Positions 9,617 through 61,071 of a stretch of 64,000 bases of DNA are shown here, piece after piece. Below the pieces are notes generated by a model that was not told the DNA's origin, did not search any database, and was given only the letters and a program-made list of their open reading frames with translations. The stretch's first letter is position 1, and each line of letters starts with the position of its first letter. Source of the DNA: a virus. The stretch lies in IMG/VR virus record IMGVR_UViG_3300002144_000477, positions 62,001 through 126,000 of that record; one strand, given 5' to 3'. Both the position numbers and the translations under genes were made by a program.

Positions 9617-12600
9617 ATGGCATTAAACAATAGACAAACAAGTTTACTGGTTCAACAGAATTGGACCAAAGTTTACGAAACGTTCAAAGAAGCTGATTTT
9701 CAGAGCTACGATTTTGAAACGTTGCGTAAAACAATGATCGATTACCTGCGTACTTACTACCCAGAAGACTTTAACGACTTCACTGAAAGTAGTGAATACG
9801 TTGCGTTAATTGATTTAATTGCATTCCTTGGACAAAGTTTAGCTTTTAGAGCTGACTTAAACGCCCGCGAAAACTTTATCGACACTGCTGAACGCCGCGA
9901 TAGCGTATTAAAACTTGCACGCCTAATTAACTACCACCCAAAGCGCAACATTGCATCGTCGGGATTACTTAAAGTCGAAAGTATTTCTACTACTGAGAGC
10001 GTATATGATAGTAACGGAACAGACCTTGCGAACTTAATTATTTCTTGGGACGATACTACCAACGATAGCTGGCAGGAACAATTTAATGCAATAATAAATG
10101 CGGCATTAGTTGATAGTCAAACAGTTGGCAAAGGCGGTAACTCGCAAGTAGTCAATGGAATTAATACAACTGAGTACACACTTAGCATTTCGCCTAATAG
10201 TGTACCGGCATACCGATTTGTGTCAGATGTAGAAGGAACATCACTTCCGTTTGAAGTTGTTAGTGCATCGACAGTAGGCAAGACTTTTGTGTATGAAAAA
10301 GAGCCAACTCCAATTGGACAATTTAACATACTACACCGCAATGATAAGCTAGGCAACAGTAGTAACAACACTGGCTTCTTTATGTACTTTAAGCAAGGTG
10401 CAGTAAACTCAGTTGATTTTAACATCGGTAGCGCATTACCAAACCGTATCGTTAACATTGATTTTGATAACATTAATAATAACGACACTTGGTTGTATAA
10501 GCTAACAGCTAATAACACAGTTGACACGCAGTGGACTAAAGTTCCTGCTATTGCTGGTATTAACATTGCTTACAACAAATCGTCAGAACGTAACTTATAC
10601 CAAGTGGTTACACGAAATGATGATAAAATTTCATTAAGTTTCGGCGACGGATCTTTTGCTAATATCCCACAAGGTAACTTCAGACTCTACTACCGTCAGA
10701 GTGCGGGCTACGAGTACAAGATTACTCCAGACGAAATTCAGAATATTAATATTCCGGTTACATACATTGACCGCAATGGCAGAACCCAGGTAATATCATT
10801 ACGTGTTAGTTTAAAGTACACTGTAGCAAATTCTTCACCGAGAGAATCAATTGCGGAGATTAGAGAAAAAGCACCGCAACAGTACTATACACAAAATAGA
10901 ATGATCACCGGGGAAGATTATAACATTTTCCCTTACACTGCGTATAACACAATTCAGAAAGTTAAGGCAACTAACAGGACTAGTTCCGGCGTTAGTCGTT
11001 TCCTTGATGTAGTGGATGTAACAGGCAAGTATTCAAGCACAAACATCTTTAGTGCCGATGGCGTACTGTACAAAGATGAATATACTAAGAGTTTAAACTT
11101 TAGTTACCAAACAGCTAACGAAATTTTTACAGTCATTTATAATCAGATTAATCCAATTCTTAAAGACAAGCCAGTGCAACACCTACACTATAATAAAGGC
11201 GCAAGATTTACAATTGAAGATAATAGCTGGAGATTTGAAAGCTCGTCGACTAACAAAACCATTGGTTATTTAATTGATGAGTCTGACGGCGTTAGTGTTG
11301 ACGCAATTGGTCCGGGCGTATCTGGTGTACTAGGTAAAATACTGCCTGGAGCTATTATTAAATTTAGTGCAGGCGAAGGCAACTATTTTAATACACGCGG
11401 ACAGATTAAAACCGGTGTAGTAACAAAGGACGGCGATAAGACATACATATATGCCGCAGTCCAACAAATAAACCAGACTACAAATCAACTAACTATTTCA
11501 GAGTATGTGCCAACTGGTGCGATTCCAGTGGAATTAATTCCTGTATTTAAGAATTTATTAAGCGATAGCATGCTTGACCAAATGGTTAACTTAATTAAAG
11601 TGTACAAGAACTTTGCGCTACGATACGACAATGAAATTAACGCATGGGCGTTAATTGATGCAGCCGACATTGGTACTGGGGGATATAGTAACGACTATGC
11701 CGGCGACACACAAGCACAAGGGCTGGATTCTAGCTGGGTTATAAAATTTGAATACAACGGAAACGAGTATACTGCAACCTATAGAGGCCTTGACTATTAT
11801 TTTGAAAGTGTAGCGGAAACTAAATTCTATTTTGATAATAGAGCCAAAGTATTTGACAGCAAAACCGGAACTACTATCACTGACACTGTTACTGTGTTAA
11901 AATTTAACAGCCAAGCAGATAGCGCATACCCGCTAGCTCAAAATTTAGCATGGAGCGTGTATAAGAACATTGTTGAAAGCGACGGTTACCAAGATAATAA
12001 AAAAATATTAGTAACGTTTCCGGATTCCGATGGCGATGGTGTGCCAGACAACCCAGACTTGTTTGATTTAATTGTTAACTCAACAGTTAACTCAACTACT
12101 AAATTTGTATTTTTTAAACAAAATCAGACTGATTCAAGTTTCATTGAATATCTACCGCTCGACTATTCAGCAGTTGAAATACTGGACTCTGAAGAAAGCG
12201 TTAGATTAAATGCCGACAGCTATTCAACTGGACAACTATTTTATTCGCACTCTAATAACCAGTTTTATCAACTAGTCACTGGTCAAACTAGCAACAGAGA
12301 AGTTATTAACGTAACGTCTGACTATAGAGCCAGAATAGGCAGAGACAAACTTAACTTCCAATACCGTCATAATAGTCCAAATAGCAGACGAATTGATCCG
12401 AGTCCAAACAATATTATGGATCTGTTTATTTTAACTAAACGATATGCAACAGACTATGCTGCGTGGATTAATGACACTAGCAATACACTGACTGCACCAG
12501 TTACTCCAACAAACGAGGAATTGAAATCGGAGTTCGCCGAGTTGGAAAATTACAAAGCAATGAGCGACAGCATTATATATAATGGTGCAACATTTAAACC

Positions 12601-12991
12601 TATCTTTGGAAATCGTGCCAACAGCGCACTTCAAGCTAAGTTTAAAGTAGTTAAGAATCCTAACATGATTATCAGTGATAGCGATGTTAAGACTAGCGTA
12701 GTTGCCGCTATCAATGCATACTTTGATATTAACAATTGGGATTTTGGCGAAACATTCTATTTCAGTGAACTAAGTGCATACTTGCACGCTGAGCTAACTC
12801 CTCAGCTAGCAAGCATTATCATTGTCCCAGGCAATAGCTCTGCACAATTTGGTAGCTTATATCAGATTAATGCTGAGCCCGACGAGATTTTAATTAGTTG
12901 TGCAACAGTTGACGACATTGAAATTATTAGTTCAATTACGGCGTCACAGATTAACCAAACCATGGCTGGTTTAATAACCACTTCTGTATAA
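9617..12991 (+). CDS. 6: Baseplate wedge protein gp6-like
   Basis: gp6 family, 1124 residues against about 660 in T4. The N-terminus carries a typical gp6/gpJ-like block: YLRTYYPEDFNDFTESSEY, then LNARENFIDTAERRDSVLKL and LINYHPKRN. In T4, gp6 dimers form the ring that couples baseplate conformational change to sheath contraction. The extra length is spread through the middle. One insert near residue 803 holds a calcium-loop-like DSDGDGVPDNPD resembling a thrombospondin type 3 repeat. The C-terminal region has a structural-protein pattern with SAQFGSLYQINA. It has its own late promoter, and the gp7-like gene follows after 16 nt. Confidence 0.85.
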   Translation: MALNNRQTSLLVQQNWTKVYETFKEADFQSYDFETLRKTMIDYLRTYYPEDFNDFTESSEYVALIDLIAFLGQSLAFRADLNARENFIDTAERRDSVLKLARLINYHPKRNIASSGLLKVESISTTESVYDSNGTDLANLIISWDDTTNDSWQEQFNAIINAALVDSQTVGKGGNSQVVNGINTTEYTLSISPNSVPAYRFVSDVEGTSLPFEVVSASTVGKTFVYEKEPTPIGQFNILHRNDKLGNSSNNTGFFMYFKQGAVNSVDFNIGSALPNRIVNIDFDNINNNDTWLYKLTANNTVDTQWTKVPAIAGINIAYNKSSERNLYQVVTRNDDKISLSFGDGSFANIPQGNFRLYYRQSAGYEYKITPDEIQNINIPVTYIDRNGRTQVISLRVSLKYTVANSSPRESIAEIREKAPQQYYTQNRMITGEDYNIFPYTAYNTIQKVKATNRTSSGVSRFLDVVDVTGKYSSTNIFSADGVLYKDEYTKSLNFSYQTANEIFTVIYNQINPILKDKPVQHLHYNKGARFTIEDNSWRFESSSTNKTIGYLIDESDGVSVDAIGPGVSGVLGKILPGAIIKFSAGEGNYFNTRGQIKTGVVTKDGDKTYIYAAVQQINQTTNQLTISEYVPTGAIPVELIPVFKNLLSDSMLDQMVNLIKVYKNFALRYDNEINAWALIDAADIGTGGYSNDYAGDTQAQGLDSSWVIKFEYNGNEYTATYRGLDYYFESVAETKFYFDNRAKVFDSKTGTTITDTVTVLKFNSQADSAYPLAQNLAWSVYKNIVESDGYQDNKKILVTFPDSDGDGVPDNPDLFDLIVNSTVNSTTKFVFFKQNQTDSSFIEYLPLDYSAVEILDSEESVRLNADSYSTGQLFYSHSNNQFYQLVTGQTSNREVINVTSDYRARIGRDKLNFQYRHNSPNSRRIDPSPNNIMDLFILTKRYATDYAAWINDTSNTLTAPVTPTNEELKSEFAELENYKAMSDSIIYNGATFKPIFGNRANSALQAKFKVVKNPNMIISDSDVKTSVVAAINAYFDINNWDFGETFYFSELSAYLHAELTPQLASIIIVPGNSSAQFGSLYQINAEPDEILISCATVDDIEIISSITASQINQTMAGLITTSV

Positions 12992-13007: not shown

Positions 13008-16000
13008 ATGGCAATCATCAAAACAGTTAACTTCCTCCCAGAAATTTTTAGAACTGACACTAACGCTAAGTTTCTAAATGCAACACTTGACCAACTAATC
13101 AATGAACCGCAGTTTAAGCGAGTTGATGGGTATATTGGGCGCAAGTTTAGTCCTACTTATAAAAGTACCGACAACTATGTTGTTGAGCCAAGTAAGCCTA
13201 GACAGCAATATCAACTTGAGCCTAGTATTATTGTTAATAATAAAGATAATGATTCAATTGATTTTTACAGCTCGTATCTAGACCTACTGCAACAGATACA
13301 GTACTATGGTGGTAATATTACTAACCAAAGTAGGTTGTTTAAAAACGAAAGCTATAGCTTCGATGGGCAGTTTGATTATGATAAGTTTATTAACTTTAAG
13401 AACTATTATTGGTTAGAAAACGGACCAGCATGTGTGCCAGTCTCTAGCGGCAATGTACCAACACATAATGACTATGATGTAACTCGTAACATTACATTAA
13501 GCGGCTACAACTTTAGCGAGTCTGGAACAGAGAGTAACCCTGTTCTTGTAATGGCTCGCGGCGGTACGTATACTTTTAACATCAATGAGCCAGGTCATCA
13601 GTTCTGGATACAGACTGAACCGGGTATATCGGGTAAACGAGCACAGCAACAAAATATTAGCACACGAGAAGTATTTGGTGTTGCTAACAATGGAACTGAC
13701 GCTGGTACAGTTACCTTCAAAGTGCCACTAGTAACGGCACAGAATCGTTACAGCTCAATGCCGGTAGTTGACCAAATTGACATTGCTAGTGTAGATATAC
13801 ACTATAGCGAAATTCAAGGAAGTGCGTTAAGTGCGTTCCTTCGTAAATTTACAAATGGTATTGATGGCGCTAAGACTTACGCAGATTTGCATAATCGAAA
13901 TATGATTTTTGCAACAACAGACGACTCGCTTGATGAATCTTACTGGTCTAACAACGAATTCTTTGCAATGCTTAGATTTGGTGCGGCAGTCAAAGATCAA
14001 GTAGTGCCTGCTGCACAACGTAGGAACATTTGGAGAATTACATTAGTGCCATCAACTGATGTTAACCCAGACTCAGGGCTAGCAGACGATTACATAATTA
14101 ATCTAATACCAAGTACTGAAGTTCAATTTGATAACCGAGTCTATGTAAGAAACGGTATTGTCGCAGGCACAAGGGAATACTACCTTGATTTCGATAATAT
14201 GTTCCATCCGGTTCCAGTTATTACCTCCAATTTAGATGTGATATACTATCAAGATTCTGTTAACCCAGCATATTTTGGTGAAATACGTATCATTGATGCA
14301 AACAATTTTAGCATTGATGTTACTAGCAGTATACTTAATAAAGTAAATTATACTAGTCCAAACGGAGTAGTGTTTACCAATGGTCTTAAGGTATGTTTTG
14401 ACGAGTATGTTACCCCTGCATTGTATGCAAATAATGAATATTATGTTGAGGGAGTAGGATCTAGCATAACGTTAATACCAGTTAGTTCGCTAGTAGCACC
14501 CGAGGAGTACGCCATTAACGGGTTAAGCACTCCTGACTACCTTACTGTGAATCGGGCTAGCATAGACCTCAATGGCTGGACACGTAGTAACCGCTGGTTC
14601 CATGTTGATATTATTACAGAAACAGCCAATTACAACAAAGACTCACTGATTTATACATACACATACGATCCGGATTTTAATAACGAGTTTGTACCGTATA
14701 CTGATAGCGCTATTGTTTCGACTATTCGTAGTCTGACTGCCATTGAGTCATTGAAAACTGAATACCAAGTTGGGCAAATTTTTTATGCCTATATTGAAGG
14801 GTTGTTTTTCCAGCTAGATGCTGAGATGAATCTAGTACCATTGGCAAATTTCCGAGCAACGAATTCTAGTTTACCTGACCAAACATTACGTGCAACTCGC
14901 CCAATTATTGAATTTAACGCAGGCACTAAGTTATTTAATTATGGTCACAGCGCATTAGACCCAGTTGACTATTTAGACTTTACAGTAACTGATGCATTCA
15001 GTGACATTGAACGTAGCGGCAGTGTGTACAACACCCTTGCACCGTATCTTAACGGTGATGTTGTTATAGTCGGGGATCAAGTTTACGGCGCAACTAAGAA
15101 CGTGCAGAGTTTACCAACTGATTCAACAGTGTGGAACCAGTTATTCCAGTTAGTACCGTACGATTCATCTAGGCCGTACCTGAAAGACGAGAAGGTATCG
15201 TTCAACGGGTCAGCATATCAAGCATTAAACTATGCCGACGTTGCACCAAGTGAAGCAAACGAAGACGAACTATGGTTTAAATTGTTTGACTATGTTTCGT
15301 ACGATCCAGAGTTAGCTGACACTTATACAATTAACACTGTAGTAGACTACGCGGGTATTGCTTACCGAGCGTTAGAAGATATCCAACAAAACCCAGCAAC
15401 TAGTGGGTTATGGGAGTTATTGTTTAATTTAATTGACGGTAAGACAATCATCTTTGCAAATGAAGACGATCCTGAAATTAGAAAACGAGTATATACTATT
15501 AGGTTAGTTGAAATAGCAGGACAAGATACTATACATCTGGAACTAGCATCCGACAGGTTAGTACAGCCGCAAGATGCAGTAATTGTTAAAAGTGGACAAC
15601 ACCAAAGCGAGAATTTTTGGTATAATGGAACCAATTGGTACCAAGGGCAATCTAAGTCTGGGGTAAACCAGGCTCCTAAATTTGATGTAGTAGACGAAAA
15701 TGGTATTAGCTTTGGTGACCGCGCTACTTATGTAGATAGTACGTTTAACGGAACAACTATATTTGAATATGCAGTCGGTACAGGCACCCGCGATACAGTA
15801 CTAGGATTCCCACTAACTTATAAAAACTTTAACAGCGTTGGTGACATTGAGTTCTTAACAAGATTTAACACTGACACCTTTACGTTTGTTAACGGGATTA
15901 AAGTAGACACTAAACAAGTAAGGTCCGGCTATCTTCTTCAGATTAACCAGGACTTGTCTCTACAACATAAAAATATCTGGACAAAGAACGTAGATGACAC

Positions 16001-19000
16001 TAAGCAGTTCCAATTAATTACTCATCAGTATGGCACCGACGGTATAAACTATTTTGAAATTGATTGTTTACCGGACATTGTAACAACTACTCCTAACTTA
16101 AAAGTGTACGTTAACAACTTGTACTTAAAGAGAGAAGACTTTAGGTTAGAAAAAGTAGGAACAAAAACCTGCATGGTTATTAATCCTGATGTTCTAACGC
16201 CTCTTGCGAAAGTTGATATATTAATTTACACATCTACTGCTATTAGTAGCATGGGCTATTACGAAATTCCGTTAAACTTAGATTTCAACAGCGAAAACTT
16301 GGAACTAGCTAGTTTAACATTAGGTCAAGTTAAAGATCACTTTATACAACTTGAAGAACACAGTAACATTATTCACGAGTCAGTTGGATCGTTTACTAGA
16401 CAACGCGATATTGAATACAAAAGTAACACTGGTACGATTTTACAACATGCGTACCCAGTATTGTACAGCAATCTGTTTTTAACAAACGATACTACATCAT
16501 TGATTGACAGTTTAGACTTAGCAAGCCGTGAGTATAGTAAGTTTAAAAACAAGTTCTTGGAACTTGCAAGCAAAATTGCTGACGCAAGTCAGGCGTCACC
16601 TGCAGAACTAGTCGACGCTATTATCACTGAGATTAACGCAAACAAAGATGCCAGTTTCCCGTTTTATCACAGTGATATGGTTCCTTACGGCACTAACCGC
16701 GCAGTATATGCAGACACAGTAATCAACCCTAATAGTAAACAGTTTGATTTGCCAGCAGTATTCAACGATACTGAATTGGGCAATACTGCGATATTAGTTT
16801 ATATTAACGAAACTCAATTAATCAAAGATGTAGATTATTATTTCCCTCAGGACCGCACTGCGGTTACATTAACTGATGCAGTAACATTACAAGTGGATGA
16901 TATTATCCGTGTAGTTGAATATTATAATACGTGGGGAAGTTATGTACCGGAAACACCAAGTAAATTAGGGCTGTATCCTAAATTTCAGCCGATGCTGTTT
17001 GCTGACGCTACTTATGTAACTACTACAAATGTAATACAAGGGCACGATGGCAGTATTACACCAGCGTTCAATGATTTCCGCGATATGTTGTTACTAGAAC
17101 TCGAAAAGAGAATTTTTAATAATATAAAAGTAAATTACGAAAGTAATATTTTTGACTTACGCGAAACATTGCCTGGTTTCTTTAGGAGCACTGGTTATTC
17201 AGACACCGAATGGAAGCAAATATTAAATCGCAACTTTTTAAAATGGGCTGGATTTAACCAAGTTGATTACAGTACACATACTGGATTTACATCAGCAAAT
17301 CCATGGACCTGGAACTATAAAAATCAAATAAACAAACTCAATGGTACTAAACTTCCGGGTAGCTGGAGAGCAATCTATTTAAGTTTATTTGATACATGTC
17401 GACCTCACACAAATCCGTGGGAGATGCTAGGATTTAGTAGCGAACCATCGTGGTGGGCAGACAGGTACGGAGCTGCACCTTATACCGGCGGCAACGTATT
17501 ACTATGGGAAGACTTAGAGAAGGGTTATATCCACAGCGGTCCGACTGCTGGCATTAACTCTTTATATGCAAGACCTGGGTTAACTTCGATTATACCAGTA
17601 AACGATTACGGCGAACTAAAAAGTCCGAACGAGTTTGTGACAGCAGGGCTAGATACATCTATATTGAACTCCAGCTATGAAGTAGGCACAATGGGCCCAG
17701 CAGAATACAGCTGGGTGTGCAGTAGCGATTATCCGTTTGCAATTCAACGTGCAATTGCATTAGCAAAACCTGCATTTTACTTTGGCAGTTTATTAAACAT
17801 TAAGCGTTACAGATATAGCGAAAAACTTGACCAATTAGTGAATGTCGAAACGTTGCGCAGAATTAGTCCTACTGATGTAGTGATTCCTAACAGCGTTAAC
17901 GCCGATGGCACCACTAACTTTGTTGCTGGGTACTTAAGCTGGATTGTTGAATTCATGAAGTATCGCGGAGTTGATGCGCAAACAGAATTGCGTCAACTGC
18001 TAGACAACTGTTCGGTTCAATTAAGTTACAAAGCTGCTGGCTTTACTAGCAAAAATTATATTAATGTATTAGCTGAGCAGAGTAGCCCAACTAGTACAAA
18101 CGACAGTATTATTATTCCAGACGAAAACTATCGTATTATTCTGAATAAGAGTACACCAATTAAGAAAGTTGTATATAGCGGAGTTATTGTTGAGAGGTCC
18201 GACAATGGTTTCACCATCGGTGGTTACGACTTAACTAATCCGTACTTCACTATCATTCCAAGTTTAGCAAATAACAACAACCACACAGTTTCGTTGCTTA
18301 ACAGCCGAGTAGTTGTTTATCACGATTATCAGCCACGTAAAATTCATGTTCCGTATGGTCATGAGTTTGCTAACATCCAGCAAGTAACTGACTTTTTAAT
18401 TAGCTACGGGCGCTTCTTAGTAGGACAAGGGTTTATGTTTAACACCCGTGATCCACAGCTAAATGAAGATCGTAATTGGGAACTAAGTGTTAAAGAATTC
18501 TTAGCATGGGAATCACAAGGATGGCAAGCAGGCAGCTTACTAATATTAAGCCCAGCGTTTGATAGAATTAATTTAGTAACCCCTGGGGCTACAGTCGACT
18601 ATGTTTCAAATGTGTCCAACGGTAGTAAAGTACTAAACCAAAACTTCCAAACAATTAAAAGCACTGAGTTTACAATTAATCGTCAGAACAACGAGTTTTC
18701 GATTGAAACATTGGATGGCGCAACAATTTGCTTATTCGAAGGCAGACTAGTCCAATGGGAACATGTAATGGTATTTGATAATACCACAGTGTTCAACGAT
18801 GTTATCTACTTGCCAGAGTTAGGTAATCGACAGTTCCGATTAAAGTTAATTGGTAATAAGACAGCAGCCTGGGCTGGTGAGTTAAACCCAGCTGGCTTTA
18901 TTTACAATAGCCCGGATATCGATTCATGGGAACCGCACACTGATTACCGTAAGGGTAAAATAATTGAATACAAAACAAAGTATTATGTAAGTTTACGTAA

Positions 19001-22000
19001 GCTAATCGGTACGGCTGAATTTGAGTTAAGAGAATGGCAGCAGATTGATCGGTATAGCATCAAGACTGGATTATTGCCAAACTTAGCATTTAGTGCTCAA
19101 CAGTTTGAACATATATACGATGTTGAAAACGGCCCAGTCGACGAGAGGTTGCAAGAGTTCAGCGGCACATTAATTGGACTGCGTAAACGCAAGTATTTAG
19201 ATGATTTAAATTTAGACTTCACTAGCCAGATGAAGTTCTATCAAGGGTTTATTAAAGAAAAAGGCACAAAGAATGCTGTTACTGCTTTAACGAATGCGAA
19301 TTTTAATAACATATCTAGTGAAATAGAAATGTATGAAGAATGGGCAGTACGTGTGGGCGAATATGGTGCGCTTGAAAGCGATGCTCAAATTGAGATAGTG
19401 CTTGATGATACTAAGTTTACAAATGACCCAAGTGCATTTAACCTATTAGACGGATTAGAACTGCCTACTCCGGGTGTTGTTCCAGTATACAAGTCTGACT
19501 TGTATCGAACAACATCGTCGGTGTTTAAACGTGACTTATTCTTTGCCCGCGGTGACGATTCTGATTACAGTAAGGATATTGCTACGGCAGGATTCGTTAA
19601 CTTAGCTGACGTCAATGCAACAGTATTTGATTTAACGAATTACAATGCGCTAAACACGTACTTAAAGCAGTTAGCCGACGGATGGAAAATATGGGTTGCA
19701 AAAGATTTTGATTTAAATTGGAACGTATACAGAATAACAAATGCCGAATTTTCGGTAGTAGCGATTAACTACGAAATCGATAATGTAATGAGTGTTGAAT
19801 TTAGCAATCCTCATAATCTTGACATTGGAGATATTTTCTGTATTAAGGGATTTGATTCAAAATTCGATGGCTTTTACAGAGTTCGTGAAGGTGGAATCGA
19901 CACTGGCATGCGAGTGCTAGTAGACTTATACCAAAATGCAGATTATTTAAAAGAAGCTAGAACGATTGCTGACAACGGCATGGTATTCCATATGGATAGC
20001 CTACGAGTAGACGATCCTATGCATATTGATCTAGTAGCACCAAAGCGCGGATGGAAAAACGGAGATAAAGTTTGGGTCGACCAAATTAATAGCCAAGAGC
20101 AGTGGGGTGTATATGAAAAAACAAACCCATGGTCGGTACTACAAGAAGTGGTTTCGCAGCCAAGTGATTTCATCGGTGAAGACGGATTCGGCGCAAAAGT
20201 TAAACTTAATATTAATTCAGACCTAGCATTGGTATCGGCACCGGCAGCCGGTGCCGGCCGAGTAAATGTGTTTGTATGGTTACCCGAAGGCAACTTTGTA
20301 CAAACAACAAAATTACAGGCGCCCGACATTGATCCAGCTACTGTTGGATTTGGTGACACATTGTCAATTAGCGATTATACCGCAGTAATTGCGGCACCTG
20401 CGAATAACAAAGCATTTGTGTATAACTTTAGAGTTGGCACATCTGGATTGCCTGTGCAAATTATATCACTGCCAGTTGGAGAGAGCATCGACAGCAAGTA
20501 CGGACAAAGTGTTGACATAAGTGAAGACGGGCAGTGGATACACGTTGGCGCACCTGGCATTAACAAAGTATATTCGTATCATAAAAACGATGAAGCAGAC
20601 GTCATTACCGATTCAGTTACAGTTACTAACTATACCGCCGGACAAACATACACCTTACCGTTTACGCCATATAGCGAAGACAGTATAGTAGTTAAGTATG
20701 ATGAAACCCAAATTTTAACGCCGGGAGTCGATTACACATTTGATGAATTAGCTAACGAAATTACAGTGCTCGGTACCGTACCTTTAACGATATCTAAAAT
20801 AACAATTCAACAAGGCGACCACTACACACTAGTTGGTGCACTTTTGGTACCGGGTATAGAATCTACCGCACAATTCGGCGCAGAACTAATAACCGATGTC
20901 GACGGAAGCGAATTGTTTGTAACAGCGCCAATGGCAGAAGTAAGCGGTATTGCAGGAGCAGGTAGAGTATTTTCGTTTGATAGACGCACCGAGATAATAA
21001 AAAGCAACGCTAACTTAACCACATATAGACATAGCGAAGATATCGTTGCAGTGTCGGATATATTCATTGGTGATGTTAGATTAGTTAAAGGACTCGAATA
21101 TTCATACAATCAAGCTACCCGCGATATTACAATTAACGTTAATAACTTAGCATCGGTTAACTTTACTAGCGGATTACGAATTAAAGTGTCTAGCGATGAG
21201 TTTGATTTAACGCATGAGATATCGCAACCTGAATCGGACATTGTACCAAACGGTATGTTTGGTTATGTAATCGATACAGATGAACACGCCGCAGCAATCT
21301 TTATATCTGCCCCTGGGTATCGCAATAGTAGCTACGCATCTGGTAAAGTTTACCGATACATTAAGCCTAGTAGGTACTACGGAACAGTAACAAGTAAAGT
21401 TGCTAACCCGGTTCTAACACCTGGTTTAAATTTGTACATAAACGGATTCCAAGTAATTGCTACAGGTGATTCAGTTAACACTCTTGCTAGCGACATTAAT
21501 AGTGCGCAGTTGCCAGGCATATCTAGTTTCGTGGACTCATCGGGTTACATTACTATTCAGTCAACAAGTAAAGTCAACCGTAGTAAGTTGTTTCTTTCAT
21601 GCGCAGGTAATAACCTGCTGTCCCAAATGGATATTGGCAACTATGTGTTAGCACAGGAAATTACAGTACCAGGGGGTGCAAACAATGATTTGTTTGGCAT
21701 CTCGCTCCGTGTAACAAACGACAGCAACACACTATTAATCGGGAACGGAAACACAACTACCCGATTGGATTGTATAATTGATGCCAACACTACTCTAGTA
21801 GACAACGGTAGTACTACATTTAAAGATATTACATTTGGTAGTCAAGTTTACACATACGAGTTACTTGAGAACGAACAGTCAAATTTATCTAACCCAGGTA
21901 AGTTGATATACGTACAAAAGTTTGATGTTATCAGTGGTAGACTATTCCAACAATTTGGCACAGCGATTGACATCCGTAAAGGAAAAGTGCTAATAGGCGA

Positions 22001-25000
22001 CTTCGGCGACGATACTATCACTAATAACGGTGGTACGGCTTGGCTATATACTAATCAGACTGGAACTAATAGCTGGAACTTAATACGCTCACAAGGCGAA
22101 ACAGTTGACATTGATACCGTAAATCGCTTAACAGTTTACAGTAAGAAATCAAACACAGTACTAGCTAATTTAGATTACATTGACCCAGCTAAAGGTAAGA
22201 TTTTAGGTATTGCTGAACAAGATATTGATTTAAAAGTAGCATTTGACCCAGCGTATTATACACACAACCCTGGCGCAAACACTATTAATATCGATACTAT
22301 CAGCTGGGGCGACGAACACGTTGGAACTATTTGGTGGGATTTAAGTTTAGTCAGGTATGTAGATTACGAACAAGGCAATTTAATTTATAGACTGAAAAAC
22401 TGGGGCAAACTGTTCCCGGGAAGTCAAGTTGAAATTTGTGAATGGGTGGAGAGTAATGTTCCTCCATTGCAGTACACTGGCAGCGGAGAACCGAAATATT
22501 CGGGCAACGGCTCTTATGTAGTTAAAAATACAGTAGACAACGCAACAGGCATACTAAATCAAAAGTATTACTTCTGGGTTAAAAATAAAACAACATCAAC
22601 AATTGCAGGCAAGGCACATAGTATCTCTGTACTAGCAGACATAATTGAAAACCCGCACCTCCAAGGTATCCCGTACGCAACACTTCTTGCACGTAACTCA
22701 CTTGGTTTGCATTCTATTAATCAGTTGTTAAGCGGTAGTGACTCGGTCCTACAAGTGCGATACGATAACTTAAGAAATAGTAACATTATACACAGCGAAT
22801 ACGAGCTGTTACAGGAACGCAATCCAGCCAGCACAATTCCTACAAAGATTATCTCGAAGCTAATAGATAGTTTAGCAGGCACCGATTTAAGTGGTAGGGC
22901 TGTTCCTGATCTTAGATTACTCGAGCAGGATAGATACGGTATTAGTATTCGCCCACGTCAGACCATGATTAAAAATAGGTCTGAAGCTATTCGTAACTTT
23001 GTTAAAGCGGTGAACTCTGTTTTAATTAACTATCCTATTAGTCAGCAAAGAGTATTAACGGGACTGCTATCTGCTGACCCAATACCAAAATCAACTGAGT
23101 ACGATTTTGCAGTTGACATGGTTGACGAACTAGCGTACATTAACGTAGATAACATCGATCCAGGGTATACAGTATTAGTCAAGAGCGACTCTAACAATGA
23201 AAATTTGTGGAGCATTTGGACATTAAATGATGCAAAAACCTTCGCATTATCGCGTATTCAGACGTATAAAACTAGTTTGTATTGGGATTACGTAGATTGG
23301 TTTGCATCGGGATACTCTGCGCAAACTCGTCCAGACTACTCAGTGGAATATATCAAAGATGTAGGTCGTTTATCATTGGTTCCTGCGGGATCTATTATTA
23401 AAGTAAAGTACAACCAAATTGGTAACTTTACTTTGTTTAAGACCAAGCAATACAACAATCTATTAGATTTAGAACTAATTGGATTAGGCAACGGCACGAT
23501 CCAACTAAGCTCTAGACTATATGATAACAACAACTATACACTAGGTTTCGGAACTGACAATTTTGATAACGAGAGATTTGACATAAACCCAAGCACTGAG
23601 TTACGCAAAATATTTGAAGCACTCCAGAACGACATATACATTGGGGAGTTATCTGCAGAGTTTAATAAACTGTTCTTCAACATGATTGACTACATTTTAT
23701 ATACTCAGCGCGATGTCGATTGGATCTTTAAAACTAGTTTTGTTAGCGTAGTACACCAATTACGCGAGTTAACTCAATACCCTAGTTTTGTCAAAGATAA
23801 CCAAGACTACTATATTGATTATATAAACGAAGTCAAACCATACAGAACTAAAATACGCGAGTACTTGATTAGCTACGCTGGTAACGATAACTATTACGGA
23901 GATGTCACTGACTTTGATTTGCCTGCGTACTACGAGTCGACTATCAATGAATTCCGTAGCCCAAGTGGCGAAGGTATTAACGACGACCTATTGTTAAGCC
24001 AAGTACAGTATAAGAGCTGGGTAGATAACCACGAATTAACATTAGAAAGTATCCAAGTCGAGCAGCCTGGCAAAGGGTACACGGTTCCACCGATAGTTAT
24101 TGTGTATGATCATAATGGTGTAGAAACTAATGTTGTTGCAGAATCTCGTATTAATCCAGTAACTGGCCAGGTAACAAGTATTGTAATTAAGTCTGCAGGA
24201 CAAAATACATACACTGCAACTCCGTATGTGGTTTTAAACGGTAACGGTACTGGGGCTACTGCTAGTGCCACAGTACGCAATTTAAAAATTAGAAGCATAG
24301 CAACTACTATTAAATTTGACAGAGTTGCATATCGTAGCAATTTAGTCAAATGGGAAGCAACTACTTCGGTAGTAACAGGCGACTTAGTATATTACAACAA
24401 TGTTGTATATCGTGCAGCAGCTGATTTAACTCCGTCGCCTATATTTGATTATCGATATTTTACTAAATTAACTGGTAACGATGCAGGCACCGCATTAGAC
24501 CGTATAGTTGCATATTATGTTAGTGCAGACGGAACACCAGGCGAAGAGTTGTTGCAAAACTTAGTTGACGGCCTAGTGTACCCTGGTGTTAGAGTAACTG
24601 GATTACGATACGAAGACGAAAGTCTAGAATCGCTGTTACTCGACTCGTACATCCAAGGTACATTCTTGGATACAGCGATAGGTACTCGCCCAGAGGACAT
24701 TGATGTTGATGGCGGTCCGTATGTTGACACGAATGTAAGCCATGGACCACAAGAGTTGATACCAGGAGTTACATTTGACACATTAGTAATGGGAGTATGG
24801 ACCAGGGTAATTGATGAGAATAACGAAGTAGTCAGTGGACCACCAATTGGCTATCGAGTTGTGCATTCTCTACACAGTAGTAGCTTAGTAACTCCGACTG
24901 AATGGATATCGGACTTTGCTTATATACCCAACAGCTTTGTTGAGTTTAACGGTGATTTTTACATGAGCACAGCAAACATTGCAAATCATGATGTAGTAGT

Positions 25001-26156
25001 TGACCCAGCTAGTAGCCCAGATTGGCGTTTAGTATGGAGCGAGCCATCTGAATGGGACGGGTCAACATCGTATGTTAAAGGGCAGTTAGTGTCATATGAT
25101 AACAAAGTGTGGCAAGCCAAAGCATCGTTTAATAACAAAGGTACTGTTGCTACTTTGATTGATTTAGTTATTAGCCCGAGTAACGTACTCAATGACATGT
25201 ATTTTGTTACTAGCGAACAAACATACTACTACTGGGACGGAGAAGCGAATTGGTTCGCAGCTACATCTATGCCCTGGGCAGAAAAGACTAGCTACCGTCG
25301 CGGCGACCACGCTGTATTCGGAACCGGATTATATAAAGCAATAGCTGGATTCCGATATATAGACGAAGTCAGTGATGCAAGTGGATTACCGGCAGACAAT
25401 GACGAGCATTTAAACACTGGCGATATTTACTATGTAACCGCAGACAGTTCGTATTTCCGCTATGTTAGCATTGATGATGGATGGACAGATATTGGCGCAG
25501 TTCTGTATTACCAAACATCGATTTGGCAACAGGTGCTAACTACTGTAGATGAAGTTTTTGGAAGTACAGTATTGAGCCAGACCGAACTGTGGTCTGCAAT
25601 TAACTACGAAAACACACCACGAGCGTTTACTAACCCATCTACTAGACAGTACTACAGAATCTCAGCTGAGAGTTCAACGGTGCTAACACAAGACTTGCTA
25701 TTGTCTGACACAGTTATGCATGTGTCAGATGCATCGGTACTACCGGCACCAGATGCTAGCAGGGCTAACCCTGGTATAGTCTACGTTAACGGAGAGATGA
25801 TAACATACTATGAGCGTGATATTGTTGCTAACACAATTTCTAGACTTTCACGCGGTACAATCGGAACAGGCGCTGCATTAGTTATACCGGCTGGGTCACG
25901 TGTAGATGATGTAAGTAAGTTACAAAAACTACCTCAGGGATCCGATAGTATCGATTGGTTAAATTCGCTAACTGAGTTTGGCTTTGTTGAAGTGGGCGAT
26001 TTTGACTATGAAGCACCTGGATACGGATTTGCTGCAAATGCAGCCTATCCAAACGGCGATGCACCGTTTGATTACTCAATTAGCATTTCAAGCGGTTTAG
26101 CCCCAGTGACTGACCAAGCTCGCTTTTTATCTAATAAGCCAGCATATAATCCGTGA
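13008..26156 (+). CDS. 7: Giant baseplate wedge protein, gp7-like, multidomain
   Basis: At 4382 residues this is the largest gene in the window; T4 gp7 has about 1030. The position after gp6 and the opening KTVNFLPEIFRTDTNAKF point to gp7, the wedge component that reaches to the periphery. Visible modules: a cupredoxin-like stretch near 175-245 (GHQFWIQT, GVANNGTDAGTVTF); short CBM5/12-like repeats of the type SYVKGQLVSYDNKVWQA near 680-812, 1973-2013, 3778-3825 and 3965-4115; FG-GAP-like propeller blades at about 2394-3026 (FGAKVKLNINSDLALVSAP, YGQSVDISEDGQWIHVGAP, FGTAIDIRKGKVLIG); and a C-terminal VNGEMITYYER module. The extra modules may bind glycans or partner fibres (inference). The reading frame is unbroken. 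Confidence 0.75.
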   Translation: MAIIKTVNFLPEIFRTDTNAKFLNATLDQLINEPQFKRVDGYIGRKFSPTYKSTDNYVVEPSKPRQQYQLEPSIIVNNKDNDSIDFYSSYLDLLQQIQYYGGNITNQSRLFKNESYSFDGQFDYDKFINFKNYYWLENGPACVPVSSGNVPTHNDYDVTRNITLSGYNFSESGTESNPVLVMARGGTYTFNINEPGHQFWIQTEPGISGKRAQQQNISTREVFGVANNGTDAGTVTFKVPLVTAQNRYSSMPVVDQIDIASVDIHYSEIQGSALSAFLRKFTNGIDGAKTYADLHNRNMIFATTDDSLDESYWSNNEFFAMLRFGAAVKDQVVPAAQRRNIWRITLVPSTDVNPDSGLADDYIINLIPSTEVQFDNRVYVRNGIVAGTREYYLDFDNMFHPVPVITSNLDVIYYQDSVNPAYFGEIRIIDANNFSIDVTSSILNKVNYTSPNGVVFTNGLKVCFDEYVTPALYANNEYYVEGVGSSITLIPVSSLVAPEEYAINGLSTPDYLTVNRASIDLNGWTRSNRWFHVDIITETANYNKDSLIYTYTYDPDFNNEFVPYTDSAIVSTIRSLTAIESLKTEYQVGQIFYAYIEGLFFQLDAEMNLVPLANFRATNSSLPDQTLRATRPIIEFNAGTKLFNYGHSALDPVDYLDFTVTDAFSDIERSGSVYNTLAPYLNGDVVIVGDQVYGATKNVQSLPTDSTVWNQLFQLVPYDSSRPYLKDEKVSFNGSAYQALNYADVAPSEANEDELWFKLFDYVSYDPELADTYTINTVVDYAGIAYRALEDIQQNPATSGLWELLFNLIDGKTIIFANEDDPEIRKRVYTIRLVEIAGQDTIHLELASDRLVQPQDAVIVKSGQHQSENFWYNGTNWYQGQSKSGVNQAPKFDVVDENGISFGDRATYVDSTFNGTTIFEYAVGTGTRDTVLGFPLTYKNFNSVGDIEFLTRFNTDTFTFVNGIKVDTKQVRSGYLLQINQDLSLQHKNIWTKNVDDTKQFQLITHQYGTDGINYFEIDCLPDIVTTTPNLKVYVNNLYLKREDFRLEKVGTKTCMVINPDVLTPLAKVDILIYTSTAISSMGYYEIPLNLDFNSENLELASLTLGQVKDHFIQLEEHSNIIHESVGSFTRQRDIEYKSNTGTILQHAYPVLYSNLFLTNDTTSLIDSLDLASREYSKFKNKFLELASKIADASQASPAELVDAIITEINANKDASFPFYHSDMVPYGTNRAVYADTVINPNSKQFDLPAVFNDTELGNTAILVYINETQLIKDVDYYFPQDRTAVTLTDAVTLQVDDIIRVVEYYNTWGSYVPETPSKLGLYPKFQPMLFADATYVTTTNVIQGHDGSITPAFNDFRDMLLLELEKRIFNNIKVNYESNIFDLRETLPGFFRSTGYSDTEWKQILNRNFLKWAGFNQVDYSTHTGFTSANPWTWNYKNQINKLNGTKLPGSWRAIYLSLFDTCRPHTNPWEMLGFSSEPSWWADRYGAAPYTGGNVLLWEDLEKGYIHSGPTAGINSLYARPGLTSIIPVNDYGELKSPNEFVTAGLDTSILNSSYEVGTMGPAEYSWVCSSDYPFAIQRAIALAKPAFYFGSLLNIKRYRYSEKLDQLVNVETLRRISPTDVVIPNSVNADGTTNFVAGYLSWIVEFMKYRGVDAQTELRQLLDNCSVQLSYKAAGFTSKNYINVLAEQSSPTSTNDSIIIPDENYRIILNKSTPIKKVVYSGVIVERSDNGFTIGGYDLTNPYFTIIPSLANNNNHTVSLLNSRVVVYHDYQPRKIHVPYGHEFANIQQVTDFLISYGRFLVGQGFMFNTRDPQLNEDRNWELSVKEFLAWESQGWQAGSLLILSPAFDRINLVTPGATVDYVSNVSNGSKVLNQNFQTIKSTEFTINRQNNEFSIETLDGATICLFEGRLVQWEHVMVFDNTTVFNDVIYLPELGNRQFRLKLIGNKTAAWAGELNPAGFIYNSPDIDSWEPHTDYRKGKIIEYKTKYYVSLRKLIGTAEFELREWQQIDRYSIKTGLLPNLAFSAQQFEHIYDVENGPVDERLQEFSGTLIGLRKRKYLDDLNLDFTSQMKFYQGFIKEKGTKNAVTALTNANFNNISSEIEMYEEWAVRVGEYGALESDAQIEIVLDDTKFTNDPSAFNLLDGLELPTPGVVPVYKSDLYRTTSSVFKRDLFFARGDDSDYSKDIATAGFVNLADVNATVFDLTNYNALNTYLKQLADGWKIWVAKDFDLNWNVYRITNAEFSVVAINYEIDNVMSVEFSNPHNLDIGDIFCIKGFDSKFDGFYRVREGGIDTGMRVLVDLYQNADYLKEARTIADNGMVFHMDSLRVDDPMHIDLVAPKRGWKNGDKVWVDQINSQEQWGVYEKTNPWSVLQEVVSQPSDFIGEDGFGAKVKLNINSDLALVSAPAAGAGRVNVFVWLPEGNFVQTTKLQAPDIDPATVGFGDTLSISDYTAVIAAPANNKAFVYNFRVGTSGLPVQIISLPVGESIDSKYGQSVDISEDGQWIHVGAPGINKVYSYHKNDEADVITDSVTVTNYTAGQTYTLPFTPYSEDSIVVKYDETQILTPGVDYTFDELANEITVLGTVPLTISKITIQQGDHYTLVGALLVPGIESTAQFGAELITDVDGSELFVTAPMAEVSGIAGAGRVFSFDRRTEIIKSNANLTTYRHSEDIVAVSDIFIGDVRLVKGLEYSYNQATRDITINVNNLASVNFTSGLRIKVSSDEFDLTHEISQPESDIVPNGMFGYVIDTDEHAAAIFISAPGYRNSSYASGKVYRYIKPSRYYGTVTSKVANPVLTPGLNLYINGFQVIATGDSVNTLASDINSAQLPGISSFVDSSGYITIQSTSKVNRSKLFLSCAGNNLLSQMDIGNYVLAQEITVPGGANNDLFGISLRVTNDSNTLLIGNGNTTTRLDCIIDANTTLVDNGSTTFKDITFGSQVYTYELLENEQSNLSNPGKLIYVQKFDVISGRLFQQFGTAIDIRKGKVLIGDFGDDTITNNGGTAWLYTNQTGTNSWNLIRSQGETVDIDTVNRLTVYSKKSNTVLANLDYIDPAKGKILGIAEQDIDLKVAFDPAYYTHNPGANTINIDTISWGDEHVGTIWWDLSLVRYVDYEQGNLIYRLKNWGKLFPGSQVEICEWVESNVPPLQYTGSGEPKYSGNGSYVVKNTVDNATGILNQKYYFWVKNKTTSTIAGKAHSISVLADIIENPHLQGIPYATLLARNSLGLHSINQLLSGSDSVLQVRYDNLRNSNIIHSEYELLQERNPASTIPTKIISKLIDSLAGTDLSGRAVPDLRLLEQDRYGISIRPRQTMIKNRSEAIRNFVKAVNSVLINYPISQQRVLTGLLSADPIPKSTEYDFAVDMVDELAYINVDNIDPGYTVLVKSDSNNENLWSIWTLNDAKTFALSRIQTYKTSLYWDYVDWFASGYSAQTRPDYSVEYIKDVGRLSLVPAGSIIKVKYNQIGNFTLFKTKQYNNLLDLELIGLGNGTIQLSSRLYDNNNYTLGFGTDNFDNERFDINPSTELRKIFEALQNDIYIGELSAEFNKLFFNMIDYILYTQRDVDWIFKTSFVSVVHQLRELTQYPSFVKDNQDYYIDYINEVKPYRTKIREYLISYAGNDNYYGDVTDFDLPAYYESTINEFRSPSGEGINDDLLLSQVQYKSWVDNHELTLESIQVEQPGKGYTVPPIVIVYDHNGVETNVVAESRINPVTGQVTSIVIKSAGQNTYTATPYVVLNGNGTGATASATVRNLKIRSIATTIKFDRVAYRSNLVKWEATTSVVTGDLVYYNNVVYRAAADLTPSPIFDYRYFTKLTGNDAGTALDRIVAYYVSADGTPGEELLQNLVDGLVYPGVRVTGLRYEDESLESLLLDSYIQGTFLDTAIGTRPEDIDVDGGPYVDTNVSHGPQELIPGVTFDTLVMGVWTRVIDENNEVVSGPPIGYRVVHSLHSSSLVTPTEWISDFAYIPNSFVEFNGDFYMSTANIANHDVVVDPASSPDWRLVWSEPSEWDGSTSYVKGQLVSYDNKVWQAKASFNNKGTVATLIDLVISPSNVLNDMYFVTSEQTYYYWDGEANWFAATSMPWAEKTSYRRGDHAVFGTGLYKAIAGFRYIDEVSDASGLPADNDEHLNTGDIYYVTADSSYFRYVSIDDGWTDIGAVLYYQTSIWQQVLTTVDEVFGSTVLSQTELWSAINYENTPRAFTNPSTRQYYRISAESSTVLTQDLLLSDTVMHVSDASVLPAPDASRANPGIVYVNGEMITYYERDIVANTISRLSRGTIGTGAALVIPAGSRVDDVSKLQKLPQGSDSIDWLNSLTEFGFVEVGDFDYEAPGYGFAANAAYPNGDAPFDYSISISSGLAPVTDQARFLSNKPAYNP

Positions 26157-26162
26157 TAAATA
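26155..26162 (+). promoter_or_regulatory. Late promoter octamer GATAAATA overlapping the gp7 stop
   Basis: The octamer includes the last two bases of the giant gene's TGA stop. It lies 41 nt before an ATG at 26204 that has its own AGGA. Initiation about 6 nt after the octamer would exclude the GTG at 26153 as start of the next protein. Confidence 0.6.
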
Positions 26163-26203
26163 ATGCTATGAATAACGATAATGCTATGCAGGATAAACCA
26201 AAC

Positions 26204-26851
26204 ATGAACGAACAAATGCAAAAAAAGCCGGATGAAAACGGCGGGTTTCATATTCAAGGGCACATTAAAATTTTTAATCCCGAAACCCAGGAAGTGTATG
26301 TAAACAAACGAAATGCAATTCACTACGAAAATATAAGTGAGGCGCTAGCATACAACTTGGCAAACAAAGGTCAAGGTTACATTTATGAAATGCACTTTGG
26401 TAACGGCGGAACTACTGTTAATGCAACAGGGGTAATTACGTACAATCCTGCAAACACTAATGCGCAGAACAGTAGTTTATATAATCCAACATATAGCAAA
26501 GTCGTTGACAATACTGATGTAAACAACTTAGATGCAACTCGTAACAAAATGGAAATTCGGCACACACCCGGGCAGCCATATACTGATATACTAGTAACAT
26601 GCCTATTAGACTATGGCGAGCCTAGCGATCAAAGTGCATTTGACAATGTACAAGACTTAAACGGTGATTATGTGTTTGATGAATTAGGGTTGCGTGCTCG
26701 TAGTACTGACGGCACAACTGGGTTAGAATCAACGGGTAAACTGCTTACCCATGTAGTTTTTCACCCGGTGCAAAAAAGTTTAAACCGACTGATTCAAATT
26801 GATTATACTGTTCGTATTCAGACTCTAACAAACCTAAGTAGCATTTCATAA
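26204..26851 (+). CDS. Baseplate/structural protein, positional equivalent of gp8
   Basis: A 215-residue protein that I do not recognise firmly. It is in the gp8 position between gp7 and the fibre genes. Its sequence contains IKIFNPETQEVYVNKRNAIHY near the start, MHFGNGGT, and a VFDELGLRAR motif late in the chain that recurs in tail proteins. An upstream GTG (26153) would add 17 residues, but it overlaps both the giant gene's stop and the late promoter. ATG 26204 has AGGA at 26190-26193, so I choose it. Wedge or fibre-attachment function is inferred from position only. Confidence 0.6.
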   Translation: MNEQMQKKPDENGGFHIQGHIKIFNPETQEVYVNKRNAIHYENISEALAYNLANKGQGYIYEMHFGNGGTTVNATGVITYNPANTNAQNSSLYNPTYSKVVDNTDVNNLDATRNKMEIRHTPGQPYTDILVTCLLDYGEPSDQSAFDNVQDLNGDYVFDELGLRARSTDGTTGLESTGKLLTHVVFHPVQKSLNRLIQIDYTVRIQTLTNLSSIS

Positions 26852-26860
26852 GGATCGAAC

Positions 26861-28684
26861 ATGGCATACGTTATTAATAAAACAAACGGCGACATTTTAC
26901 TAAATTTGCCAGACGGGGCACTTGATAATAGCACCGGCTTATCGTTAGTAGGACGTAACTATGTTGGATACGGTGAATTGCAACAAGAGAACTTAGTTAA
27001 GTTACTCGAGAATTTTGCCAATGGTGTCCGACCTAGTACAGCGCTACCTGGACAGTTATGGTATGACACTACTGTCGGGCAGTTAAAGTACTATAACGGC
27101 AGTGTGTTTAAACCTATTAGCAACTTATCTATTAGCTCAGAGTTGTCTAAACCAACTAACGTAGTAGTTGGCGACCAATGGTTTAACACTGACCAAAACG
27201 AATTTTATATATGGAACGGAGACTCTTGGACACAAATTGGACCAACAGATTTATCTAAGTTATCAGAAATTAGAATTACTGGCACATTAGCGTCTGAATT
27301 TGACCTCCCTGCTGGCGTAGGTGTTGTAGCAGGAACATCGTATTTGATTGCAGGTGACTTATGGGTATGGGATACCGAGCGATGGTCTAACGTTGGTCAG
27401 GTAAGAGGCCCACGAGGTGACGCTGGTCCACAGGGCCCTACAGGTGAGCAAGGACCACGAGGCCCAGTTGGGTCTGAGGGTGCAATGGGCATTCAGGGCT
27501 TACGTGGCCCACAGGGTGTTCAAGGACCGCAAGGCATCACCGGACTCCAAGGACCGCAAGGCGTCAAAGGCGACGAGGGCACTGACGGTACATCGGTCAA
27601 TATTTTAGGAGCATTAGCTAGCTCTGCTGAATTACCTGTTACAGGAAACCCAGGCGATGCATATCTGATTTTAGGTAATTTATGGGTCTGGTCCGGGTCC
27701 GGTACATGGGAAGATGTAGGAAACATTAAAGGCCCGCAGGGAAATCCAGGCGCAACAGGACCTCAGGGTGCACAAGGTGTACAAGGTCCCAATGGCAATG
27801 CCGGACCGCAAGGGGTCCAGGGACCGCAAGGAACAATTGGACCGCAAGGTAATCAGGGACCTGCTGGTCCACAAGGGCCTGCAGGCCCTCAAGGTCCCAC
27901 GGGCGATACTGGATCGCAAGGTGCAACCGGAGCGCAAGGTTCAACAGGTCCAGCTGGTCCAGTAGGCCCGCAAGGAAATGTAGGACCAGCGGGTCCGGTT
28001 GGAACGACTGCATGGGCAGACCTGACTGGCATACCTAATTTTGCTGGTGTAGCAACAAGCGGTGATTATGGTGACTTAATAAATAGGCCAGGGCTGTCAG
28101 CAGTTGCAACAAGCGGCAGTTATACCGATCTAGCTGACAAACCAATATTAAATTTTATTCCAATAACTGGCTCTGCTAGTTTAACAGGAAGTTTAACTCC
28201 GGCTGTAACTGCTATTAGCGATATGGGTACATCTTCTAAAAGGTGGAACAATATATATGCAGAGACATTCAACGGAACTGCAACTAGAGCACAGTATGCC
28301 GACGTAGCAGAACGATTTGAAGCTGACGCAGTTTACAAACCTGGAACAGTAGTATCACTTGGCGGAACGAAAGAAATCACTGCATCATTAGGCGATGCTA
28401 GTGAAGATGTATTTGGTGTTATTAGCACAAGTCCAGCACACTTAATGAATGCTGAAGCAGGGTCCGATACTACTCACCCAGCTGTTGCTATCGGTGGGCG
28501 AGTACCAGTTAATGTAGTTGGGCCAGTTGCAAAAGGTCAGCGATTAGTTAGTGCTGGGAATGGGTTAGCAAGAGGTGCCGATCGTAACGAAATCACGAAC
28601 TTAAATGTAATAGGGCGTAGCTTAGAAACTAAAACAACAAGCGACATTGGAACCATTGAAGCTATTGTACGAATAAACACATAA
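26861..28684 (+). CDS. Collagen-like tail fibre with Peptidase_G2-type C-terminus
   Basis: A 607-residue fibre. The N-terminus ([19 protein letters not shown], then PGQLWYDT) is shared with the proteins at 29672 and 31224 and is probably the baseplate attachment module. Two collagen-like Gly-X-Y tracts (about residues 181-246 and 290-383, rich in GPQ triplets) flank a small repeated globular unit. The C-terminal 140 residues ([26 protein letters not shown] near the end) match the Peptidase_G2 / intramolecular-chaperone autoproteolytic pattern of phage fibres, predicting trimerisation followed by self-cleavage. The start has AAGGA upstream. The collagen tracts should form a triple helix, as in other phage fibres. 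Confidence 0.8.
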
Positions 28685-28692
28685 GGTATTGC

Positions 28693-29628
28693 ATGGCTAA
28701 CACAGTTACTAAATTGTTTCGTACTGCTGGAGTATTTCAGATTACTATCCCCAACGGAGTGAATGCTACAATTGACTACAAAATATGGGGAGCAGGTGGC
28801 GCAGCGGGAGGTGTTGACGGCAATGGCCCGCAAGGCAACGGAGCGTCGGGTGCATATACTGATGGGACATTATTAGCACGAAGTGGTGATGAACTGCTAA
28901 TAGCAGTTGGTGAAGCAGGCAAGCCTGGCACATCAGGGACAGGCTCCGGTGGTGGTGCAGGCGGTCGGAGTTTTTTTGGTCATGGAGGGGGCAGAGGCGG
29001 CAATGCAGGCGCTGCTGGCTGGTCCGGCGGCGGTGCAGGAGGCGGTGGCGCCTCGGTGATTGTAGTTAACCAAGGTATTGTTGCAATCGCTGGTGGTGGT
29101 GGCGGTGGTGGTGGTGGCAGCCATAATCGATCTGGCACCAATGGAAGAAATACACAAACAGCAACTACAGGATCGTACGGTAAACCTGGAATAAATATGG
29201 GCGGTGACGGCGCTGGCGGCGGTGGAGGTGGAGGCGGAGTACTAGGCGGCGTCGGCGGTGCATCAGGCCGAGATAATTCGGTAGGTGGGCAAGGTGGCGC
29301 CACTGGAACTGGCGGAACGCCCGGAACTAACGCTACACCGGTTAACACAGAATCCGTTGTTTGGGTCCCTCCTGCAGGATTAGGAGGCACAGGCGCGTCA
29401 GGTCAAGCTGGTAACGGATTAGTGCATTTAGAAATCACAATAACTGGATTTGGCAAAGTAAAAGTTAATAGTGACTGGCATGACGTTGATACCATTTATG
29501 TAAAAGAGCAAAATCTGTGGAAGCCAGTTAAAGACATGTATGTTAAAGAGAATGGGAAATGGGTTAATGTTGCAGTTGACCTTGGCAAACTAGCGGTGTT
29601 ACCAGCAAAGTCGTTTTTTGCTAATTAA
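28693..29628 (+). CDS. Glycine-rich tail fibre adhesin
   Basis: A 311-residue protein with a short beta-rich N-terminus (FRTAGVFQITIPNGVNATID), a core of about 190 residues dominated by glycine runs (several of six to nine Gly), and a C-terminal tail with repeated YVKEQNLWKPVK and YVKENGKWVNV segments. The glycine core resembles the polyglycine-II sandwich adhesins at T4-like fibre tips (gp38 of phage S16 type), where loops between glycine strands contact the receptor. The location between fibre genes agrees. Receptor binding is inference; the receptor is unknown. Confidence 0.7.
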   Translation: MANTVTKLFRTAGVFQITIPNGVNATIDYKIWGAGGAAGGVDGNGPQGNGASGAYTDGTLLARSGDELLIAVGEAGKPGTSGTGSGGGAGGRSFFGHGGGRGGNAGAAGWSGGGAGGGGASVIVVNQGIVAIAGGGGGGGGGSHNRSGTNGRNTQTATTGSYGKPGINMGGDGAGGGGGGGGVLGGVGGASGRDNSVGGQGGATGTGGTPGTNATPVNTESVVWVPPAGLGGTGASGQAGNGLVHLEITITGFGKVKVNSDWHDVDTIYVKEQNLWKPVKDMYVKENGKWVNVAVDLGKLAVLPAKSFFAN

Positions 29629-29634
29629 GCACAG

Positions 29635-29642
29635 GATAAATA
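29635..29642 (+). promoter_or_regulatory. Late promoter octamer GATAAATA before a fibre gene
   Basis: GATAAATA, 29 nt before the ATG at 29672, is in the gap after the glycine-rich adhesin gene. Confidence 0.7.
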
Positions 29643-29671
29643 CATTATTACTATTATAAAGCAGGATTACA

Positions 29672-31171: not shown

Positions 31172-31182
31172 CTTTCAATTAA

Positions 31183-31190
31183 GATAAATA
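31183..31190 (+). promoter_or_regulatory. Late promoter octamer GATAAATA before a fibre gene
   Basis: GATAAATA, 33 nt before the ATG at 31224, lies in the gap after the preceding fibre gene, with CGGAG between octamer and start. Confidence 0.7.
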
Positions 31191-31223
31191 AAAGCAATAA
31201 GTACTCGACGGAGACACAGGAAT

Positions 31224-38636: not shown

Positions 38637-38646
38637 AGAGGACAAT

Positions 38647-42518: not shown

Positions 42519-42526
42519 TTTTTAAT

Positions 42527-60921: not shown

Positions 60922-60950
60922 GGGCTTCTCCTTTTGTACAGTATTTAACT

Positions 60951-60979: not shown

Positions 60980-61000
60980 CCTAAATTTAGCTAAAGTATG

Positions 61001-61060: not shown

Positions 61061-61071
61061 ACAGCGAACTA

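Follow-up and report, generated by a model that had tools for sequence, protein, structure and literature searches.

The wedges of phage baseplates are usually viewed as conserved machinery, and host recognition is assigned to the fibres. In T4, the gene of gp7 (1032 residues) follows that of gp6 in the baseplate wedge operon. In RaK2-, PA5oct- and Atu_ph07-like jumbo phages, giant proteins of the family PHROG 10938, until now known only as "virion structural protein", are encoded at the same place, the gene lying immediately 3' of a gp6-type wedge gene in PA5oct, Atu_ph07, Phosso, RaK2, CBB and XacN1. In SCTP-2 and Vibrio phage 2.275 the gene beside the orthologue bears another name, and the gene 5' of the SCTP-2 orthologue (L014:17272-26562, minus strand) is annotated with 9,291 bases, far larger than the gp6-type neighbours elsewhere. 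The orthologues comprise 3313 (XacN1), 3326 (RaK2), 3340 (CBB), 3771 (Vibrio phage 2.275), 3807 (SCTP-2), 3857 (PA5oct), 4449 (Atu_ph07) and 4555 (Phosso) residues. The PA5oct protein is annotated as detected in the virion by ESI-MS/MS, and CBB_236 was found in CBB virions with 21 peptides (PMC5259590). The T4 homologues listed in the CBB analysis are gp6, gp25 and gp53, with gp7 not among them (PMC5259590).

We analysed a window of 64,000 nucleotides, a portion of the 170,893-bp virus record IMGVR_UViG_3300002144_000477 (positions 62,001 to 126,000), in which a gene of this family stands in the order gp5 - gp25 - gp6 - giant - 232-residue protein - several fibre genes, all on the plus strand. 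The gp5-type gene (6892-9159; PHROG 13211, Pfam Phage_base_V) encodes the baseplate hub and tail lysozyme, and the gp25-type (9184-9558; PHROGs 261 and 43) and gp6-type genes (9617-12991; PHROGs 10646 and 219) encode wedge subunits, the latter immediately 5' of the giant gene. The small gene on its 3' side (26153-26851) belongs to PHROG 11259; in several relatives a gene of comparable size also lies 3' of the orthologue. The first of the fibre genes occupies 26861-28684. The giant thus located is of a known kind of tail-tip protein; what sets it apart is an integrin-like propeller, present in many uncultured relatives, in a loop that others leave empty or fill differently. With RaK2 gp465, CBB_236, PA5oct gp355, Atu_ph07 gp180 and SCTP-2 140 it has in common the gene place (in most), the conserved core, the C-terminal blocks, a comparable giant size and CBM5/12 repeats, which occur in most members scanned, but in these phages the slot that follows the core is short or otherwise filled and none contains the propeller. 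The propeller form was seen in no isolate record examined; giants of this type are very common in environmental virus contigs.

Gene position, length and conserved scaffold

The giant gene (13008-26156, plus strand) is a frame of 4382 codons with no internal stops. The first-pass annotation of the window had described its product as a gp7-like baseplate protein of 4382 residues, about four times the length of T4 gp7, and had named a splitting of the gene by undetected frameshifts as one finding that would speak against it. Reading frame and length ratio (4382 versus 1032 residues) are both correct. A split is very unlikely, since another IMG/VR record (L007) encodes the same protein, identical at 4381 of 4382 residues with M1360T as the sole substitution. 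DNA repeats inside the gene are weak and resemble chance matches. Its product has a significant match to PHROG 10938 (1050 bits), and tblastn with the halves of the protein retrieved approximately 60 jumbo phages; neither megablast with the gene as query (phage records) nor phmmer with the full-length protein (PDB sequences) gave a match. As the relatives range from approximately 3,200 to 6,190 residues (median 4370 among 51 complete proteins, the largest being L025), 4382 residues are ordinary and the great length is a trait of the family.

The place directly 3' of the gp6-type gene is that of T4 gp7, and assignment to the baseplate agrees with the gene order, the PHROG family and the detection of orthologues in virions by mass spectrometry. 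The likeness to gp7, by contrast, finds no support beyond the position. The Pfam gp7 domains (helical, V and VI), which do match T4 gp7 in a control, were found neither in the window protein nor in 10 relatives at E values up to 1. In hhalign, 51 family members compared against five gp7 proteins reached probabilities of at most 0.5%, whether the whole protein or seven segments were used, which is weak evidence of absence because the alignment of gp7 has little depth (Neff 2.1). A fold search of the PDB with the model of the core alone returned CBM-like and weak Ig-like matches and nothing else; gp7 was unlisted, an absence that does not exclude it. Pfam and profile searches having been negative, we find evidence for "gp7" in the position but none in the sequence, and use the label gp7-position protein.

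The most conserved part of the family is a core at residues 1311-2150 (16938-19457), as revealed by the alignments, with a model pLDDT of 83. A second conserved block begins at residue 3024 (3024-3340, 22077-23027); its opening strand WNLIRSQ (W3023) closes the propeller described below. The core (approximately 1311-2150) and this later block (approximately 3024-3690) constitute the scaffold. When bacterial and archaeal genomes were scanned for the core, only seven loci were found, all in MAGs, and the scan therefore provides no reliable host assignment.

CBM5/12-like repeats and the domain at residues 150-260

The first-pass annotation had also listed several CBM5/12-like repeats as insertions. 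The repeats are real: Pfam CBM_5_12 scores 41.5 bits against a cut-off of 26.2, and a profile built from the family finds three strong repeats, at residues 1968, 3777 and 4015, and five weak ones, at 680, 724, 772, 3965 and 4090, with one weak chance match in a shuffled control. They are not all insertions, since the unit at residues 1968-2014 (18909-19049), recognized by the profile and by a fold match at 1968-2016, belongs to the conserved core and hence is not an added module. It superimposes on chain 8fqc_P1 of the phage Milano baseplate over 45 residues with an rmsd of 1.0 (Z 7.1). Three weak repeats at residues 680-793 (15045-15386) are missing in most relatives (column occupancy approximately 0.1). 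The C-terminal copies comprise a repeat at residues 3777-3821 (24336-24470; E 1.5e-13) and a group of three at 3965-4113 (24900-25346), the middle one of which (4015-4038) is the Pfam match. CBM5/12 chitin-binding modules are known also from the tail structures of the phages Milano and 7-7-1; the window copies resemble them in the fold match of the core and in the Pfam match, but they are short and degenerate, and one is built into the core. Chitin-binding members typically carry paired tryptophans, and none were seen in the matched stretches.

Residues 150-260 (13455-13787), which had been taken for a cupredoxin-like stretch, form a domain conserved across the relatives. This naming does not hold: neither Pfam nor PDB sequence profiles gave a convincing match to a cupredoxin family, and the full set of copper ligands (His, Cys, His, Met) is missing from the aligned stretch. 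Instead, PHROG 677, the baseplate wedge tail fiber protein connector, matches it in 9 of 10 aligned relatives; with this gp9-type connector the giant has nothing else in common.

A predicted seven-bladed propeller in a beta-hairpin

Between the two parts of the scaffold lies a seven-bladed FG-GAP propeller of the integrin alpha type (residues 2373-3026, 20124-22085), identified by its repeats, by its AlphaFold2 (AF2) model and by fold comparison. The repeats start at residues 2394, 2448, 2498, 2623, 2751, 2896 and 2983, and their spacing reveals long inserts that enlarge blades 3 to 6. The slot contains four copies of the strict FG-GAP motif where 0.30 are expected, a count reached in none of 2000 shuffles. 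Pfam FG-GAP_2 lies above its curated cut-off in the window protein, scores 39.9 bits on the propeller segment (cut-off 23) and matches all 42 aligned members. The single FG-GAP_2 model, run over the window genome, found nothing, since the cut-off is exceeded only by the repeats in combination. AF2 predicts residues 2290-3066 as one closed seven-bladed propeller with a mean pLDDT of 83.7 and a pTM of 0.84, and its limits nearly coincide with residues 2394-3026, which the first-pass annotation had proposed to model as a single propeller.

A Foldseek search with this model returned mainly propeller proteins, and in VIA-align the integrin alpha heads ranked first, with Z 39.6, an rmsd of 2.6 and 17% identity over 351 residues of the segment 2373-3026. 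The likeness to the integrin alpha-subunit head thus comprises the predicted fold and the FG-GAP repeats. The sequences, however, are only 17% identical, the Ca2+-binding DxDxDG loops of integrins occur neither in the window propeller nor in any other slot, and the propeller here is part of a phage tail protein. Blade 6 contains a long beta-hairpin (residues 2908-2953, 21729-21866) with a conserved motif of the type TxFDxxxTxxDxxSTxFxD, in which D2925 and D2932 are invariant across 42 sequences. In the openly accessible journal literature no account of a propeller in a protein of this type was found. With the propeller region as query, tblastn found no match in phage isolates (E 1e-3), so that the phage records yielded no experimental system in which the propeller is present.

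The insertion site is defined by close relatives with and without the propeller. L051 and L060, in which the site is empty, are close kin of the propeller-bearing L058 and L062 and have the same flanks. In the window protein the site is bordered by the first hairpin strand WGVYEKTNPW (residues 2366-2375, 20103-20132) on the left and by WNLIRSQGETVD (from residue 3023) on the right. L060 reads GWAVYTYNGSTWTRTRQQSPSVDI across the empty site, and at the corresponding place L058 has GWGVYTFNSPW, then the propeller, then TAWNLTRQQTPQVDI. Comparison of the empty with the filled site places the propeller in the turn of a beta-hairpin. That FG-GAP blades had been inserted, as first suggested from the sequence, is therefore confirmed by the seven repeats, the model and the relatives with an empty site.

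The slot, measured in 76 members as the region between the core (to approximately residue 2150) and the next conserved block (from approximately 3024), contains at least three FG-GAP motifs in 54, one or two in 4 and none in 18. It spans 200-317 residues in RaK2, CBB, Vibrio phage 2.275 and PA5oct as opposed to at least 598 residues where a propeller is present. The largest relative, L025, is a complete frame of approximately 6190 codons with a slot of approximately 1500 residues that carries propeller motifs. Other relatives have other fillings. A YHYH domain occupies the same hairpin in L048 (E 4e-29; L048:6018-8264) and L067 (E 8e-31; L067:2684-4249). A GDSL hydrolase follows directly after the core, at a neighbouring site, in L053 (E 6e-10), L061 (2e-11; slot L061:3933-5426) and L072 (8e-15), where it is possibly an enzyme borne by the wedge protein; L055, L077 and L080 contain sequence that, judged by eye, resembles the GDSL set. 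The slots of Atu_ph07 and Phosso contain arrays of GxGY repeats, and that of SCTP-2 contains a stretch without a Pfam match. Gene, family, predicted fold, insertion and the alternatives at the site are thus established, and a loop that is empty or differently filled in relatives suggests an exchangeable attachment module.

In a tree of 75 cores, 68 environmental members, among them 57 propeller bearers, form a clade with strong support, and the isolates branch outside it; such proportions are biased to the kin of the window since the loci were picked by core similarity to it. The state of the propeller requires 4 changes on the tree versus 16.4 with shuffled labels and would fit one gain and three losses: in L095, in L051 together with L060, and in a clade of eight members with YHYH or GDSL domains. 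Among close pairs (60, not independent of one another) identity is 0.56 for the propeller, 0.68 for the core and 0.66 for the block behind the slot. The propeller thus diverges moderately faster than the scaffold without being hypervariable.

Proposed role of the propeller and genes nearby

The gp7-position protein is probably a giant baseplate scaffold at the wedge of a myovirus akin to jumbo phages, with a peripheral, exchangeable interaction module. The core and the following block would make up the wedge scaffold, with the propeller inserted in the beta-hairpin between them. As both of its ends meet at one loop, the propeller should project from the wedge as a knob. Most likely it would serve as a platform for interactions on the baseplate rim, in one copy per scaffold chain, which makes contact with the surface of the host or receives a fibre or a neighbouring part of the baseplate, and the CBM-like repeats could act as further spacers or as sugar-binding units. 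That the domain can be missing from its hairpin or replaced there speaks for a role in peripheral interactions, and the peripheral receptor-binding or regulatory function proposed by the first-pass annotation is plausible. Arguing against it are several separate fibre genes downstream, which are the more usual determinants of host range, a divergence of the propeller only moderately above that of the scaffold, and the conserved motif of blade 6, which is as compatible with an internal, fixed contact as with one facing outward.

An internal contact is the essence of a rival reading, which we regard as rather unlikely, in which the propeller locks adjacent wedges, or the sheath to the baseplate, during assembly and plays no part in recognizing the host. 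The invariant aspartates of the blade-6 hairpin, the modest excess in divergence and the mostly vertical inheritance within the large clade would agree with such a lock. However, the propeller is dispensable, being missing in the close relatives L051 and L060 with the same flanks, in L095 and in all isolates examined, and unrelated domains sit at or near the site in other relatives. It is far less probable still that the propeller is an ancestral part of a T4 gp7-type protein that some phages later lost. The gene position equals that of T4 gp7, and the gp7 proteins of T4, V09 and leE each contain one Asp-box-like motif (SNDKGQTW/SNDGGKTW near residue 212), which presumably would fit a propeller there. 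Yet Asp-box and FG-GAP propellers are distinct repeat types, the sequence and profile comparisons found no similarity to gp7, and the isolates, which branch outside the propeller clade, have no propeller. An artefact, whether from motifs arising by chance, from the fusion of two genes or from misassembly, is already refuted by the relatives, many of which have the same architecture, by the same protein in L007 and by the motif count that shuffling never reached; nothing was found in its favour.

More tentatively, the wedge giant of environmental myoviruses may possess a dedicated exchange loop for surface-active modules, filled by the propeller, by a YHYH domain or by nothing, and a second site nearby that receives a GDSL esterase. 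If so, the baseplate wedge itself, besides the fibres, would be a diversified surface for interaction with the host. The loop, with its natural empty and filled versions, is a precise site at which a role of the wedge in adsorption or triggering can be tested, and the exchangeable module provides a function to be sought in this family of virion structural proteins.

Several genes 3' of the giant gene deserve mention. Three fibre-like genes (26861-32768, plus strand) have related N-terminal parts with 34-45% identity, and two of them also have a related C-terminal part (51%), which suggests duplication with a docking domain in common. Behind the fibre genes, four radical SAM genes start at 37227, 38647, 41307 and 42527 (37227-43825, plus strand), two of them with SPASM domains; their products are possible modifiers of virion or sugar parts. 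A Nol-like carbamoyltransferase and a nucleotide-sugar epimerase, at 46605-48104 (plus strand) and 54053-55078 (minus strand), suggest sugar modification functions close to the tail genes. At 59659-62175 (minus strand), a DUF2201 metallopeptidase/VWA gene adjoins a MoxR-like AAA gene with a weak match to the MoxR partner in MoxR-vWA-beta-propeller systems.
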